Under the pieces are notes generated by a model. It had not been told where the DNA came from. It ran no database searches and saw only the letters and a list, made by a program, of their open reading frames with translations. A stretch of 64,000 bases of DNA from Sinohyriopsis cumingii (lineage: Eukaryota > Mollusca > Bivalvia > Unionida > Unionidae): contig CM068841.1 of NCBI GenBank assembly GCA_028554795.2, forward strand, positions 26,407,308 through 26,471,307. The letters run 5' to 3'. Below, in pieces: positions 1-64,000 of the stretch; position 1 is the stretch's first letter, and every line of letters begins with the position of its first letter. The position numbers and the translations under genes were made by a program.

Positions 1-306
1 TTTCCATTGCCTACCCATTTTTTTAATTTTTTTATTTTTATTTTTTATTTTATTCTTTTTTTAAAAAAATTAAAAAATCCCATGTTCAATTCCCCTTGTC
101 CCTAGACAGACCCACACTTTATTCCCCCATGTTCAATTCCCCTTGTCGCTAGAGTAACCCACGATTTTTCTCCATGTTCAATTCCCCTTGTCGCTAGAGT
201 TGCCCACGATTTTTCTCCATGTTAAATTTACATTGTCGCTAAAGTTGCCCAGGAGGGGTCTGTAATGCTAATTCCCATTGTCGCTAAAGTGCCCCTATTC
301 ACTACT
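1..306 (-). mobile_element. Terminal tandem-repeat end of a Polinton-like element (interior lies left of window)
   Basis: Read on the minus strand from 306 downward, the sequence starts AGTAGTGAATAGGGG and then carries five imperfect ~45 bp units around a core TCTAGCGACAAGGGGAATT followed by AACATGG. The same start and core occur on the plus strand from 61138. Beyond the units (positions 1-70) the sequence becomes A/T-homopolymer rich. The shared terminus faces right, so the element body lies to the left, outside the window. No coding sequence is visible here. The family assignment rests on the coding region attached to the other copy. Confidence 0.55.
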
Positions 307-21159: not shown

Positions 21160-21488
21160 GTTGTGATGTGATGTGATGTGATTTGGATTTTTAACGTAGC
21201 TTTAACAATTTTTCAGTTATATCGCTACGATGTCTGCAAAGTGGCAGTTTATAGTGATGTCTAGTACTGGGGCATCATGCCGCAGACATGTAGCATGATG
21301 TCCCACCCAGTCACATTATCCTGACACCGGGCCGACCAGTCCTAACACTAACCTCGTAATGCTGAGCGCCAAGCGAGGCAGCTGTTAGTACCATTTTTGT
21401 AAGTCTTTGGTATGACTCGGCCGGGGATCGAACCCACGACCGCCCGCATCCGAGGCGGACGCTCTAACCACTAGGCCACCGGAGCGGT
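21160..21488 (-). mobile_element. SINE-B, full length, tRNA-derived
   Basis: On the minus strand the head reads GGTGGCCTAGTGGTTAGAGC (A box) and GGGTTCGATCCCCGGCC (B box), a tRNA-like module. The body has TGCCTCGCTTGGCGCTCAGC, GGTCGGCC and TAACGTAGC-related blocks, and the tail is (ATCAC)n. It sits within a CATA/CAGA microsatellite (21105-21150 and 21490-21540). Other copies: 14079, 31032, 32957. Confidence 0.92.
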
Positions 21489-47159: not shown

Positions 47160-47560
47160 TAACAGACAGACAGACACAGAGAGACAGAGACAGACAGACA
47201 GACAGAGACAGACAGACAGAGACAGAGACAGACAGACAGAGACAGACAGAGATAGACAGACAGACAGAGACAGACAGAGACAGAGACAGACAGAGACATA
47301 CATACATACATACATACACATACACATATTGTATACATACATATACATACATTGTATACATACATATACATACATTCTATACATACATACATATACATTG
47401 TATGCATACATACATGCATACACATTGTATACATACATACATACACATTGTATACATACATGCATACATACATACACATTGTATACATACATACATACAT
47501 ACACATTGTATACATACACATTGTATACATACATACATACATACATACACATTGTATACA

Positions 47561-47592
<32 letters not shown>

Positions 47593-48645
47593 CATTGTAT
47601 ACATACATACATACACATTGTATACATATATACATACATATACATTGTATACATACATACGTACGTACGTACATACGTACATACATACATATACATTGTA
47701 TACATACATACATACACACTGTATTCATACATACATACATACATACATACACACTGTATTCATACATACATAGATACATACATACATACATACACACTGT
47801 ATTCATACATACATACAAACATACGTTCCAACCTACCTACCTACATACCTACATACGTTCCTACCTACATACCTACCTACATACATACATACGTTCCTAC
47901 CTACATACATACATACCTACCTACCTACCTACATACGTTCCTACCTACCTACATACGTTCCTACCTACCTACCTACATACATACGTTCCTACCTACATAA
48001 CGTTCCTACCTACATACGTTCCTACCTACCTACCTACATACATACATACCTACATACATACCTACATACATACATACATACATACCTACATACTTACGTT
48101 CCTACCTACATACGTTCCTACCTACAAGTTGTTGTTGTTGTTGTATGGTTTAACGCCATTTTTCAGCACAAGATAGGCTATACATGGCGGCCAGTATAAT
48201 TGGTGGAGGAAGAACCCTGGAAAACCCCGGGACGAACCACGGACTCACGAGAAGCTACTGGCAGGCTTTCTCACATACCCACGTTAGCCGAGCCTGAGAC
48301 TCTACCTACAAGTAAGGACATACATACATACCCATACACACACACATACACACACACACATACATACATACATACATACATACATACCTACATTCATACC
48401 TGCATACCTACGTTCCTACCTACCTACCTACGTTCCTACCTACCTACCTACGTATATATATATATACATATATACATACATATATACATACATACATATA
48501 TACATACATATACATACATATATACATACATATATACATACATACATATATACATACATACATACATACATACAGACAGACAGACAGGCAGGCAGGCAGG
48601 CAGACAGACAGACAGACAGACATACATACATACATACATACATTT
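47160..48645. repeat. 1.5 kb compound tetranucleotide array with higher-order structure
   Basis: (ACAG)n at 47161-47295; (CATA)n with a recurring CACATTGTATACATACATAC higher-order unit at 47296-47820; (CTAC)/(CATA) with ACGTTCCTACCTAC units at 47820-48125; a SINE-A insertion at 48127-48305; then CATA, CTAC, TATATACATACA and CAGACAGG sub-arrays to 48645. Long open frames of YIHT/VCMY repeats on both strands are artefacts of the 4 bp period. Confidence 0.97.
48127..48305 (-). mobile_element. SINE-A, 5'-truncated, within the tetranucleotide array
   Basis: The (GTT)n start is the reverse of the (AAC)n tail, followed by TTTAACGCCATTTTTCAGC and GGCTATACATGGCGGCC. It is truncated before the A box. 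It interrupts the CTAC array. Confidence 0.88.
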
Positions 48646-61137: not shown

Positions 61138-61290
61138 AGTAGTGTATGGGAACGATTTAGCGACAATAGGACTTTAATTTTAAAATAGTGAGTTTGCCCT
61201 TTGGTGACAATGGGAATTTAACATGGGGAAAACTGGCCCGGCCCTTTGGCGACAAGGGAAATTTAACATGGGAGATGGATATAACACAGA
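61138..61290 (+). repeat. Terminal tandem repeats of the Polinton-like element
   Basis: Three degenerate units around TTTAGCGACAATAGG, CTTTGGTGACAATGGGAATT and CTTTGGCGACAAGGGAAATT, the last two followed by AACATGGG. They share terminus CAAAGTAGTG and unit core with 306-70 on the minus strand, which has five units. Confidence 0.75.
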
Positions 61291-61340
61291 CAACAGACAA
61301 CAAACATTTTTTTTATAAAAAGAAATTAGGCAAGAAAGTC

Positions 61341-61380
61341 AATTTCTTTTCGTGACCTATGAATGGCCCTGAAAAGGGCC
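61341..61380 (-). terminator. Histone-type mRNA 3' stem-loop and downstream element (minus gene)
   Basis: Minus strand: flank CCAAA, then GGCCCTTTTCAGGGCC (6 bp perfect stem, TTTC loop; stem at 61365-61380), then ATTCA, and about 10 nt later a purine-rich CACGAAAAGAAAT. This is the full replication-dependent histone 3'-end signal: stem-loop bound by SLBP and a U7-type downstream element. It starts 48 nt after the TAA at 61428. The associated gene is not a histone. Confidence 0.85.
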
Positions 61381-61408
61381 TTTGGGTTTATGTTAACCTT
61401 ATTCCATG

Positions 61409-61642
61409 TTAACATAGAGGGTAATACTTAGGTCTTCTTCTTTTCCTTAAACTTTGTCTCACTTCTGAGCCGTAAATTAAAACCCTCTTTAAACAACCTT
61501 GCCTCTCCACGTAGATTCTTCTTTTCCACACACTTGTATCTGTCATCCTGACAATAGTCCACGATGATTGGACATATATCGGTAAGTCCCACCGGAACAG
61601 CATTGAAGAGACTAGAGTAGAAGATTCCACGTTGGTCCACAT
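61409..61642 (-). CDS. Small gene of unknown function in the Polinton-like element
   Basis: A minus-strand TATA box (61685-61692) and an ATG at 61642 with A at -3 define the gene, and a histone-type stem-loop ends it. The ATG frame gives 77 residues (MWTNVESSTLVSSMLFRWDL start, basic end) and stops at 61409. A second frame has no ATG but looks more protein-like: DQRGIFYSSLFNAVPVGLTD, then KKNLRGEARLFKEGFNLRL, ending KFKEKKKT with TAA at 61428. A one-base lesion just after the ATG could explain this, as could translation of the less typical frame. No homology is recognised; the lysine-rich tail suggests nucleic-acid binding in the second frame. Confidence 0.4.
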   Translation of the reverse strand: MWTNVESSTLVSSMLFRWDLPIYVQSSWTIVRMTDTSVWKRRIYVERQGCLKRVLIYGSEVRQSLRKRRRPKYYPLC

Positions 61643-61684
61643 CTTGTTGACGAGAACAGGTAAAGGAATGCAGTGAACTGCGGT

Positions 61685-61692
61685 TATTTATA
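61685..61692 (-). promoter_or_regulatory. TATA box of the minus-strand gene at 61642
   Basis: TATAAATA on the minus strand, 43 nt before the ATG. A CCAAT-type box lies at 61729-61733. It forms a divergent promoter with the TATA at 61806. Confidence 0.6.
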
Positions 61693-61805
61693 GGGGAAGG
61701 GAAGATCGAAACGGATTGAGCTGGTTAACCAATCCAAACACGTGTTACAAAATTCAGTCACCCCACGCACAATCCGAAGAGAGCAGTCTGTGACGTCACA
61801 TTCCA

Positions 61806-61812
61806 TATATAG
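61806..61812 (+). promoter_or_regulatory. TATA box of the plus-strand gene at 61860
   Basis: TATATAG in CCATATATAGAGG. The expected start site is near 61836, just before ATG codons at 61842 and 61860. A CRE-like TGACGTCA lies at about 61791. Confidence 0.6.
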
Positions 61813-61859
61813 AGGCGCTAGCGTCTGTGTGCAGTCAATCTATGCGACAGTTTTCAAAC

Positions 61860-62453
61860 ATGGCACAAACTCTGAAGACAATGAATTGGGGTGCACCGGC
61901 TATGGAAACGAAAAGCAATGGAATAGCATCGACTACAAAAGTGAACCCAGACTTACTTCCAGAAGAGGTGAATTTAAATTGGGATTTTGTGGATTTTCTT
62001 ACCTCGTAAGAATTTGTTCCGGAACCAGTACCATCGCCACCTTCTCCTTCTTCACCACACTTGGAGAATTTTAAACAGAGACAGAAAGAAGAATTGGAGA
62101 AATTTATACAGCAGCAAATGGAAGCAGAACAAGCTTTTCTCCTACAGCAGCAAGAAGAAGCGGTAAGAAAGAAACAACAAGAAGAAGCAGCAAAGAAACA
62201 AGAGGGTGAAAGTCAAACGGTTACGATACTGTTGGACACTTTAGCGGAGTTAAGAAGTCTGAAACAAATGTATCAGACTTCTTTATTACGACCGAAGAGA
62301 AAACAACCTTCCCGAGCTAAACAACCCAACCCTGTGACTACACCTACCATTCCACCCTTAGTGATTTCTACCAAATCATCATCGACAGTACGCAGTCCAG
62401 AAGTAGGCCTTGGCCATGGCAAAGGCTTAAGGCAGTCAAAGTTGATTGTTTGA
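61860..62453 (+). pseudogene. Q/E/K-rich coiled-coil protein gene of the element, one in-frame TAA
   Basis: ATG at 61860 (AAACATGGC, strong context; ATG 61842 is in the same frame but only a few bases from the expected cap). The frame encodes 49 codons with an acidic hydrophobic end (VNLNWDFVDF), hits TAA at 62007-62009, and continues open in the same frame to TGA at 62451-62453. The continuation starts with a Pro/Ser-rich linker, then a long Gln/Glu/Lys coiled coil (KQRQKEELEKFIQQQMEAEQ onward, about 62070-62215), a Leu-rich segment and a basic Pro/Ser/Thr tail. A single nonsense change or programmed readthrough would explain this. A histone-type stem-loop follows 19 nt after the final stop. 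The role is unknown; a structural or DNA-binding accessory is possible. Confidence 0.6.
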
Positions 62454-62729
62454 ACCAACAAATACCCCAAAGGTCCTTTTAAGGGCCACCCATTTCTCTC
62501 GAAAAGAGATAGTATTTCAATTGCCAACATCAATTAAAACTCAAAAAGCCCTTTTTTATCCTTATGGAACGTCTGAATGTATGAGTGCGTGAGTGTAGAT
62601 TTGTATTCTAAAAATCAAAACCAAGAGACATTTACGTTTTATGTCTGGTCTATTCTGCTACTAATTTTTTACAATTCAGTTCACAACATAGCACTTTAAA
62701 AAATTAATTAGCTTCCTCTTTGTCTGTCT
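62454..62729. other. Convergent intergenic region of the element
   Basis: Apart from the stem-loop signal, I see no AATAAA or second stem-loop for the minus-strand zinc-knuckle gene, whose 3' end is therefore undefined. Confidence 0.4.
62472..62513 (+). terminator. Histone-type mRNA 3' stem-loop and downstream element (plus gene)
   Basis: Flank CCCCAAA, stem GGTCCT / AGGGCC (one G-U pair) with loop TTTA at 62472-62487, then canonical ACCCA and, 10 nt later, a purine-rich CTCGAAAAGAGAT. The core CGAAAAGA is shared with the minus-strand signal at 61341-61380. Both sit at histone-like distances from stop codons. Confidence 0.85.
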
Positions 62730-63161
62730 TCACTCTCTCTGTTTTTTAAATTTCTTCACTTTCACAGCTTTTTCCTCCTCTTCATCTTTAAATTCTTCCC
62801 TTCTTTTTTTCTCAGGTTTCTGTTTCTTCACCTGTCTGCTTTCTTCCTCTTCTTCCTCTCCATAATCCCTCTCTTCTTCTTCTTGCTCCTGTTGTTTCTT
62901 AGGGCAGTCTGGAGACCAATGTCCTTTTTCTTGACAATGATAATAGGTATCTTGACTTTTGTCTCTTCTAACCCTCTTCTTGCTTTCTTGACGGTCTGGA
63001 CACTCTGAAGACCAATGTCCTTTCTTCTTACAGATATAGCAAGTATCTTGACTTTTATCTCGAAAGGAGGGTGAGTAGTCCGTCGGCTTGTCTGAAGAAA
63101 ATTTTCGGATGACCCCTCGCAAAGCTCTGATGAAAAGTTCGATCTGCGTAGTCTCTTCCAT
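62730..63161 (-). CDS. Zinc-knuckle (CCHC) protein with acidic/basic tail, Polinton-like element
   Basis: ATG at 63161 follows a TATA box (63216-63225) by about 55 nt; an upstream in-frame start would lie before the expected cap site. The 143-residue product has a short N-terminal region (MEETTQIELFIRALRGVIRK), a canonical knuckle DTCYICKKKGHWSSEC (CX2CX4HX4C), a tandem repeat of the same ~30 residues with the second knuckle DTYYHCQEKGHWSPDC in which the first Cys is Tyr, and a highly charged Glu- then Lys-rich tail. Zinc knuckles bind single-stranded nucleic acid, so packaging or replication accessory roles are plausible. This is not a retroviral Gag: no capsid domain and no neighbouring RT. 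Confidence 0.8.
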   Translation of the reverse strand: MEETTQIELFIRALRGVIRKFSSDKPTDYSPSFRDKSQDTCYICKKKGHWSSECPDRQESKKRVRRDKSQDTYYHCQEKGHWSPDCPKKQQEQEEEERDYGEEEEEESRQVKKQKPEKKRREEFKDEEEEKAVKVKKFKKQRE

Positions 63162-63215
63162 TGTTCTGCTCAGTTTGAGAGTTAAATGAATAGTGGAAGG
63201 ACAAGACACACACCC

Positions 63216-63249
63216 TTTATATATACGTTGGTCTGTCATGGATATAAAG
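63216..63249. promoter_or_regulatory. Divergent TATA boxes of the zinc-knuckle and polymerase-like genes
   Basis: TATATATAAA on the minus strand (63225-63216) and TATAAAG on the plus strand (63243-63249) share a 135 bp intergenic region. The expected plus-strand start is near 63273. Confidence 0.55.
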
Positions 63250-63296: not shown

Positions 63297-64000
63297 ATGA
63301 AATGATCGAATCCATTTGAGAAGAAAGAAGAAGAAGGTAAGAGGCAGAAACGTGATCTATCGCCTCGTACCATCGCTGAAGTCTTGGCACAAATTCATGC
63401 CAGTGATTTTGAAGATGACATGAGTGAACCAGAATCCAGACCCAGAGAGTCTGCGCCTAGTCAAAGTTCACTAGTCAACCACATTCTAGAGACGGAAAAG
63501 CGCTCCTCTAGAAAATTTAGAACCACGGCTTACACTTACAGGGTGAAGTTTAAAGATTTCAAGTCCGACGTACCGTTGGAGAAAGCAGAGGGTTTCGTCA
63601 CCGGGATTTGGGATTCTTTGCTCACCACACTGAAACGTCAATGTCAAGCCAAAGAAGACGATCGCTTGAGACTATCCATACAACGCGATAGCTTGAAATC
63701 CCCTGTTTGGATCGAGTTTAGCAGCGCTGCAGAATTGACCCCATTCAAAGTCATGGACAAGATCCAACACGTGAAACAATCCAATGACACGTTTCACATC
63801 ACCGATGGAAAAGCCACACTGTTCATGGTCTCTCCTCCCCAAGGGACCGGACAACGCATAAAGGGATTATTGGTGGACGACCTTCGCAGCACCAAAAAGA
63901 GTCTCGTCCAAATTAACAACCCTCAAAACCAGATGCGTTTAGCCCGTGCCATTATTGTGGGACGAACCTATGCCAACAAGAACGACACGGTAGAATGGAA
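63297..64000 (+). CDS. Probable N-terminal part of a Polinton/adintovirus-type DNA polymerase B, with TGA at codon 3; runs off window
   Basis: The ATG at 63297 is in frame with a long open frame to the window end, but codon 3 is TGA (63303-63305). The next in-frame ATG is 63420. The N-terminus is charged (KKEEEGKRQKRDLSPRTIAE). Then come a TAYTYRVKFKDF segment, an RLRLSIQ block, SPVWIEFSSAAEL, a VMDKIQHVKQSNDTF segment, GKATLFMVSPPQGTG, and STKKSLVQINNPQNQMRLAR followed by AIIVGRTYANKND. This succession, ending in an N..RLARAI motif, is what I know from the region ahead of the exonuclease/polymerase domains in animal Polinton/adintovirus polymerases. The catalytic domains would lie beyond 64000. 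If TGA is a lesion, a C-to-T change at a CpG is the simplest route. Confidence 0.55.

Follow-up and report, generated by a model that had tools for sequence, protein, structure and literature searches.

The stretch of DNA analysed here, called the window, is 64,000 nucleotides (nt) of the genome of the bivalve Sinohyriopsis cumingii, and a genome search placed it at C18:26407308-26471307 in the 2.9-Gb assembly. It carries the left part of a Maverick/Polinton copy, two genes of which, on opposite strands, end in the 3' signal of replication-dependent histone genes. We consider it highly likely that this copy belongs to a Maverick/Polinton family that bears the animal histone 3'-end signal at the inner edge of its terminal inverted repeats (TIRs), ends up to three genes per element with it and probably has their transcripts processed like histone mRNA. 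The observations behind this reading are the signals themselves, their association with genes, their repetition throughout the genome, their match to the histone code of the host and the anatomy of the element. Cleavage by SLBP and the U7 small nuclear ribonucleoprotein (snRNP), the absence of poly(A) and a coupling to S phase are what we infer; the idea that the element uses host histone processing is well supported at the level of sequence.

The window was searched with RF00032, the Histone3 covariance model of Rfam, whose family cut-off is 34 bits. An earlier note, made from the sequence alone, had claimed two histone-type 3' signals on opposite strands; they are present where it placed them, with their flanks and a fixed spacing, and the covariance-model check that it had suggested returned both:

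61340-61385, minus strand: Histone3 stem-loop (RF00032, 36.4 bits, E 6e-7, above the 34-bit cut-off)
61380-61365, minus strand: stem of this signal, with its spaced purine element CGAAAAGA at 61352-61345
61409-61642, minus strand: minus gene, 77 amino acids, frame fixed by related copies
61860-62453, plus strand: plus gene, about 200 amino acids in relatives, here with an in-frame stop at 62007-62009
62467-62512, plus strand: Histone3 stem-loop (RF00032, 32.0 bits, E 2.7e-5, below the 34-bit cut-off)
62472-62487, plus strand: stem of this signal, with its spaced purine element CGAAAAGA at 62500-62507
62533-62538, plus strand: ATTAAA, a possible back-up poly(A) signal 3' of the plus-strand signal

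The E-value of 2.7e-5 holds for 64 kb and 4,227 families, and the 64-kb window gave no further RF00032 match up to E 5. Both signals have a CCAAA flank, a six-pair stem and a loop reading UUUC or UUUA, and in both CGAAAAGA begins exactly 12 nt past the stem. Each stem lies on the sense strand of its gene, 3' of the stop codon (61409-61411 for the stem at 61380-61365, 62451-62453 for that at 62472-62487). The hairpin pattern CAAAGGNCCTTTTNAGGNCCA, with up to 3 mismatches allowed, matched the window at these two signal sites only, and two sites were reached in none of 100 shuffles. Chance hairpins were ruled out by the model scores, by this pattern and shuffle test and by the genome-wide RF00032 search described below. 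The two signals had also been called independent, with compensated stems, and neither description held. They are not independent inventions, since they resemble each other at 77% across 60 nt, and the minus one is the inner TIR edge in related copies; nor are the stems compensated, because they differ by a one-sided U.G/C-G change.

The whole assembly was likewise searched with RF00032, and the 75 best of 589,472 candidates were scored, which makes a sample and not a census; this list omits the window's own sites and the hairpins of a host histone unit, L116 (35.0-39.4 bits). All 75 sites exceeded the cut-off, the best one with 45.6 bits, and 14 control genomes together gave one weak match and none above the cut-off. 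By tblastn, the genes that the 75 sites end are 29 minus genes, 23 plus genes, 12 genes of a family C and 11 of a family D. A text rule had first given 28, 23, 12 and 9, respectively, with 3 unassigned; tblastn then placed L038, L053 and L071 and moved L085 from C to D. The proteins had been described as non-histone, and this is confirmed: the seven window open reading frames (ORFs) gave no histone match in Pfam, and the 75 upstream genes belong to these four other families, called by tblastn, with Pfam run on one family C ORF together with its upstream part. Histone pseudogenes or captured histone genes are ruled out for the products on the same grounds (Pfam on the window ORFs, tblastn families). 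The products of families C and D are lysine-rich and helical-looking, and their genes (at L031, L034-L036, L038, L045, L047, L049, L050, L052, L054, L055 and others) end in the signal at the element's opposite end; genes of both families can follow the same EPT..QTILQRIKKKM-like stretch.

A less biased test was made on the 39 gene ends placed in the tested loci, 21 of which had not selected their locus. Hairpin and purine element were found at 20 of these 21 ends, all six pairs being kept in 16 and five pairs in 4; at one (L114, a minus gene) nothing was recognisable. The signal recurs at many copies, and 75 of the 75 listed sites end non-histone genes, which answers the check on related copies that the earlier note had proposed. 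The motif AAAAG lies 14 nt past the stem in 74 of the 75 selected sites and in all 20 recognisable unselected ones. Gene-placed signals are in sense orientation, with the stem 10-28 nt past the predicted protein end. We compared the plus-gene 3' ends of 16 copies and the window (17 sites) in 5-nt blocks: pairwise identity was 0.72-1.0 from -5 to +39 around the stem and 0.27-0.49 upstream, from -75 to -6, and downstream it was 0.64 at +40, 0.84 at +45, 0.72 at +65 and 0.28-0.57 in the rest, the comparison being ungapped, which exaggerates the divergence of the flanks.

Where the signal of the terminal genes lies with respect to the TIR was read from related copies, eight far-end pieces of which were compared with their partner ends. 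The repeat of the window copy is as follows:

61138-61386, no strand: left TIR of the Polinton copy, terminus AGTAGT at 61138, histone-type signal at its inner edge

TIRs of 439-523 bp and 95-97% identity were found at both ends in three of the eight copies (L109, L110, L113), and AGTAGT stands at both ends of L044/L109, L051/L110 and L062/L113. In these three copies the TIR identity starts at query position 15 or 17 and the hairpin match at 21, so that identity begins 4-6 nt before the hairpin and extends outward; hairpin and purine element are therefore the inner edge of each TIR. For the TIR of the window this position is taken over from the related copies. The minus gene at one end and its family C or D counterpart at the opposite end both point outward and finish in the TIR signal, because hairpin plus purine element forms the inner edge of the TIR. 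Another copy of the signal, internal and outside the TIR, belongs to the plus gene. A strict scan detected the hairpin in six of the eight far pieces and in neither L111 nor L112. In the other far-end pieces the TIR match was 44 bp in L108 (the signal itself only), 59 bp in L115, 73% over 296 bp in L114, overlapping pieces in L111 and none in L112. At L111, L114 and L046 there are hints that copies of this family are nested or lie only a few kb apart.

A signal that, for the terminal genes, is the inner edge of the TIR, with both TIRs of a copy nearly identical, could also be a part of the TIR that acts at the DNA level, for the integrase, a terminal protein or packaging, its histone likeness being due to descent or chance. 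We hold this to be quite unlikely. The third copy of the signal, 3' of the plus gene, is not part of the TIR and is conserved while its upstream surroundings are not; moreover, gene-placed copies have the sense orientation and the position past the protein end given above, and the purine element of the host histone genes is present at the host spacing.

Passages of PMC9756948, PMC2781718 and PMC7786107 describe metazoan histone pre-mRNAs as cut between the hairpin and a downstream element by a machinery of SLBP and U7 snRNP, mainly in S phase and with no polyadenylation. The histone genes of the host, located with PF00125, lie in arrays of units of about 8.3 kb (best 150 of 662 candidates), and tandem units are often on small contigs, such as C531, C561 and C941. 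The unit L116 holds H3-H4-H2B-H2A-H1, named from their sequences and all on one strand, and the RF00032 scores of their hairpins are 35.9, 37.7, 38.2, 39.4 and 35.0 bits, respectively. The minus signal of the window (36.4) is within this range of 35.0-39.4 and the plus signal (32.0) 3 bits below it. The element stem GGCCCT/AGGGCC is also that of four of the five L116 hairpins, H2B sharing the loop too, and the H1 stem GGTCCT/AGGACC is a two-sided change from it. AAAAG stands at +14 past the stem in H3, H4 and H2B and at +15 in H2A and H1. Over 55 nt the element sites are on average 76% identical to the H2B signal, 72% to that of H3 and 59-64% to the other three, and the L116 histone signals are 51-80% identical among themselves; the likeness of the element signals to H2B is of the order seen between one host histone signal and another. 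The replication-dependent histone genes of L116 share with the element genes the hairpin, the purine element, the spacing and a short 3' untranslated region (UTR); in contrast, the element's products are non-histone and its genes are part of a mobile element.

The stretch TTTCAATT stands at window 62515-62522 and at L116:2755-2762, about 43 nt past the stem start. It lies in a stretch conserved among element copies and follows host H2B, not the other four L116 histone genes; it may be an additional processing element or a trace of the signal having been taken from H2B. The signals of element and host differ in their 5' flank, which is CCAAA or AAAAA in the element, AAC in four of the five L116 genes and CAAA in H1. 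The layout differs as well, since the five L116 genes are on one strand whereas the element pair is divergent. The AAC flank and one-strand layout of the host genes speak against a simple copy of the host signal.

Resemblance to H2B, the closest host signal (mean 76%), and the common TTTCAATT block raise the question of relics, a module that the element acquired a single time from a histone gene of the host and has carried along since, with expression going through poly(A) sites. The ATTAAA at 62533 fits this view, as does the human H2AC18 pre-mRNA, for which a passage of PMC9756948 reports that either pathway can be used. We nevertheless judge it unlikely that the signals are relics, for a relic should decay evenly, and the unselected signals are intact at 16 of 21 sites as against the low upstream conservation. 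The many copies per genome could also suggest decoys, hairpins that bind SLBP and lower the host's histone supply and that do not serve the processing of the element's own mRNA. This is highly improbable: every hairpin sits where a 3' end belongs and is followed by a purine element, for which a decoy has no use.

Several points weigh against a histone-type processing of the element's transcripts. The plus signal of 32.0 bits falls short of the Rfam cut-off, and the ATTAAA at 62533 could yield a polyadenylated mRNA. At least one pair was lost, or the hairpin was unrecognisable, at 5 of the 21 unselected sites. The figure of 75 out of 75 rests on a best-scoring sample and, most copies being related, the counts are not independent events. 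There is no RF00032 match 3' of the zinc-knuckle gene that lies beside the plus gene (see below), and the 10 kb adjoining the window on the right yielded no histone-type signal. A search for U7 found none in the host assembly, and the control genomes gave no match either. Finally, covariation as proof of the stem was sought in 24 rows and not found: stem cells were paired at 97.2%, shuffled columns did equally well, and no pair had changed on both sides, so that the co-variation among copies that had been put forward as a check did not appear. Because conservation of the stem is at the level of sequence, covariation speaks neither for it nor against it.

We classify the element as a Maverick/Polinton by its terminus, target duplication, polymerase and integrase, features read partly on related copies, and the assignment of the signal-bearing genes to a Polinton made in the earlier note agrees with the AGTAGT terminus, the TIRs, the target duplications, PF03175 and rve. 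The (AGT)2 end motif is known for Mavericks, according to a passage of PMC8097293. Target duplications of 6 bp were identical at 6/6 positions in two related copies (ACCAGA, GGTAAT) and at 5/6 in a third. The distance from hairpin to hairpin is 17.2-17.5 kb in the three TIR copies and 19.4 kb in L033/L108. The C11 pair L035/L057 was rejected as the two ends of one element, since its 6-bp flanks differ and its TIRs are only 70% alike. The related copy L115 has a PF03175 polymerase (2e-16 and 1e-16), of whose gene the window holds only the homologous N-terminus. An rve integrase (PF00665, 9e-12) lies in L106, the 10 kb to the right of the window. Looking at vertebrate Mavericks, the part of PMC8097293 that describes them likewise gives (AGT)2-ended TIRs and 6-bp target duplications, and the core genes of the group named in a passage of PMC3671162, family B polymerase and rve integrase, are also found in the present element of about 18 kb. 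What differs from the vertebrate Mavericks, as described in PMC8097293, is that both TIRs carry a histone-type signal and that an internal gene is followed by one.

The window copy itself is broken or incomplete, because L106 and L107, the next 10 kb, yielded no right TIR and no match to a protease or to family C or D. It is also decayed: a stop interrupts the plus gene in frame at 62007-62009, and another the PolB gene at 63303-63305. In L106 the ORFs that follow the PolB start gave no Pfam match, and between them and the integrase L106:1853-2569 encodes a BIR (inhibitor of apoptosis) domain (PF00653, 5e-19). L107 gave a reverse-transcriptase fragment and no Polinton match among four of six listed ORFs. 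Neither a packaging ATPase nor a capsid protein was named in the Pfam scans, which covered 9 of 10 L106 and 4 of 6 L107 ORFs and included no search aimed at them. In related copies, an ORF beside the family C/D genes resembles by eye a C5-type protease, by features that we presume to be typical of such enzymes; Pfam gave no such match. The left TIR sequence is common to an oppositely oriented terminus at window 306-78, and window 1-306 is the terminus of a second Polinton copy, which is located left of the window in the opposite orientation. Elsewhere in the window, microRNA-family matches below their cut-offs (mir-297 and others), numerous at 47296-48643, fall on TACA/TGTA microsatellites, and a tRNA match of 33.4 bits at 21413-21485 (minus strand), whose acceptor stem has several non-standard pairs, is possibly a tRNA-derived repeat.

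The remaining features of the left end of the element are the following:

61643-61859, no strand: divergent promoter region, with motifs between the minus and plus genes
Within it: TATAAA at 61692-61687 (minus strand), CCAAT at 61729, CACGTG at 61739, TGACGTCA at 61791 and TATATA at 61806
62730-63239, minus strand: zinc-knuckle protein gene (PF00098, 4e-11)
63297-64000, plus strand: N-terminal part of the PolB gene, running out of the window, with a stop at 63303-63305

The copy of TGACGTCA between the minus and plus genes is perfect; we take this motif, the TATA-like boxes, CCAAT and CACGTG to have their usual promoter meanings. The frame of the minus gene starts at 61642 and is conserved in genome copies. 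An alternative frame, HSFTC..., was ruled out because the MWT... frame is the one conserved in related copies, and a protein search with the HSFTC... frame had given no match. The minus product has an isoelectric point (pI) of 11.0-11.3 in 4 copies and is strongly basic (pI 11), as a DNA-packaging protein would be. The products of families C and D, lysine-rich, have a pI of 9.1-9.8, and the plus product is near neutral (6.7-7.9). Basicity does not, however, set the signal-bearing genes apart, because two PolB fragments without the signal have a pI of 9.5-9.7. Homologues of the plus gene were 19 of 189 candidates in the protein collection, with 62-74% identity; the window's stop at 62007-62009 is read through in 16 of them, and the other three start past it. 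A plus-gene relative is predicted to form a long helix at residues 53-136 in disordered surroundings (mean predicted local distance difference test, pLDDT, 67; predicted template modelling score, pTM, 0.27). PolB homologues were 12 of 390 candidates, three of them named Sinanodonta woodiana, a freshwater mussel, which pointed to a unionid mussel as the probable host.

We also looked for relatives elsewhere. The metagenome relative P0013 extends further than plus proteins normally do, and this extra tail, turned back into nucleotides, can spell the signal. Of the 31 positions of a template that combines hairpin and purine element it matches 30; the runner-up among 31 proteins matches 25, and among 20,000 random peptides none reached 30 and one reached 29. 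This test was devised after the tail had been noticed, with a template of our own making, and reads the signal from the protein only. Pattern scans of viral contigs gave 1 and 29 stretches; none of these stretches had an RF00032 match at the cut-off, and L001 had none at E 0.5. Protein and alignment scans of viral contigs and genome contigs found no relatives.

The earlier note knew of no description of such signals for Polintons. This is nearly right in that we found no description either, except that PMC12220804, in the part available, lists 6 histone 3'UTR stem-loops obtained on scanning 8,300 genomes of Polinton-like viruses and does not discuss them; it is a count only, and section 16 of that paper gives no host, gene, position or role. 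In contrast to those viruses, as far as that part goes, the signal described here is built into the TIR and common to four gene families. The literature searched, which did not include the adintovirus paper, contained no other report of such signals in Polintons, Mavericks, adintoviruses, other DNA viruses or transposons, and the word 'histone' is absent from the main texts of PMC8097293, PMC3671162 and PMC4642659. Histone3 has likewise been named in a virus in the case of coronaviruses (in a passage of PMC7786107); there, the RF00032 match has 14.7 bits, far below the 34-bit cut-off, and lies inside a coding region with no gene-end position. In the literature searched, use of the signal by this group thus appears to have been counted before and not described.

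We are moderately inclined to a more specific form of the preferred reading, that of a Polinton whose TIRs hold a histone module and which makes poly(A)-free, S-phase-gated mRNAs from its two outermost genes and from an internal one, with at least one strongly basic product. In the preferred reading the TIR module consists of an SLBP-type hairpin and a U7-type purine element; the two outermost genes are read out into the TIRs and stop there, and the third, internal gene has its own copy. Most likely, host SLBP and U7 snRNP would cut the transcripts a few bases past the hairpin, the predicted cleavage falling about 4-6 nt past the stems, near 61360 and 62492. The resulting mRNAs would be short, probably unspliced and poly(A)-free, and made and translated mainly during DNA replication; the ATTAAA at 62533 could give an alternative polyadenylated form, as in human H2AC18. 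The element would gain independence from poly(A) and an expression in step with DNA synthesis, which may be of use to an element encoding a DNA polymerase of its own.

Histone-type 3' ends are treated as a mark of histone genes. If the proposed mechanism is true, a mobile element has appropriated the expression programme of histones for replication-linked proteins of its own, which would be a simple route for coupling the expression of virus-like genes to DNA replication, and such transcripts would be invisible to poly(A)-selected RNA-seq. The element offers a natural non-histone test set for recognition by SLBP and U7, and the timing of Polinton expression in animal cells becomes directly testable.

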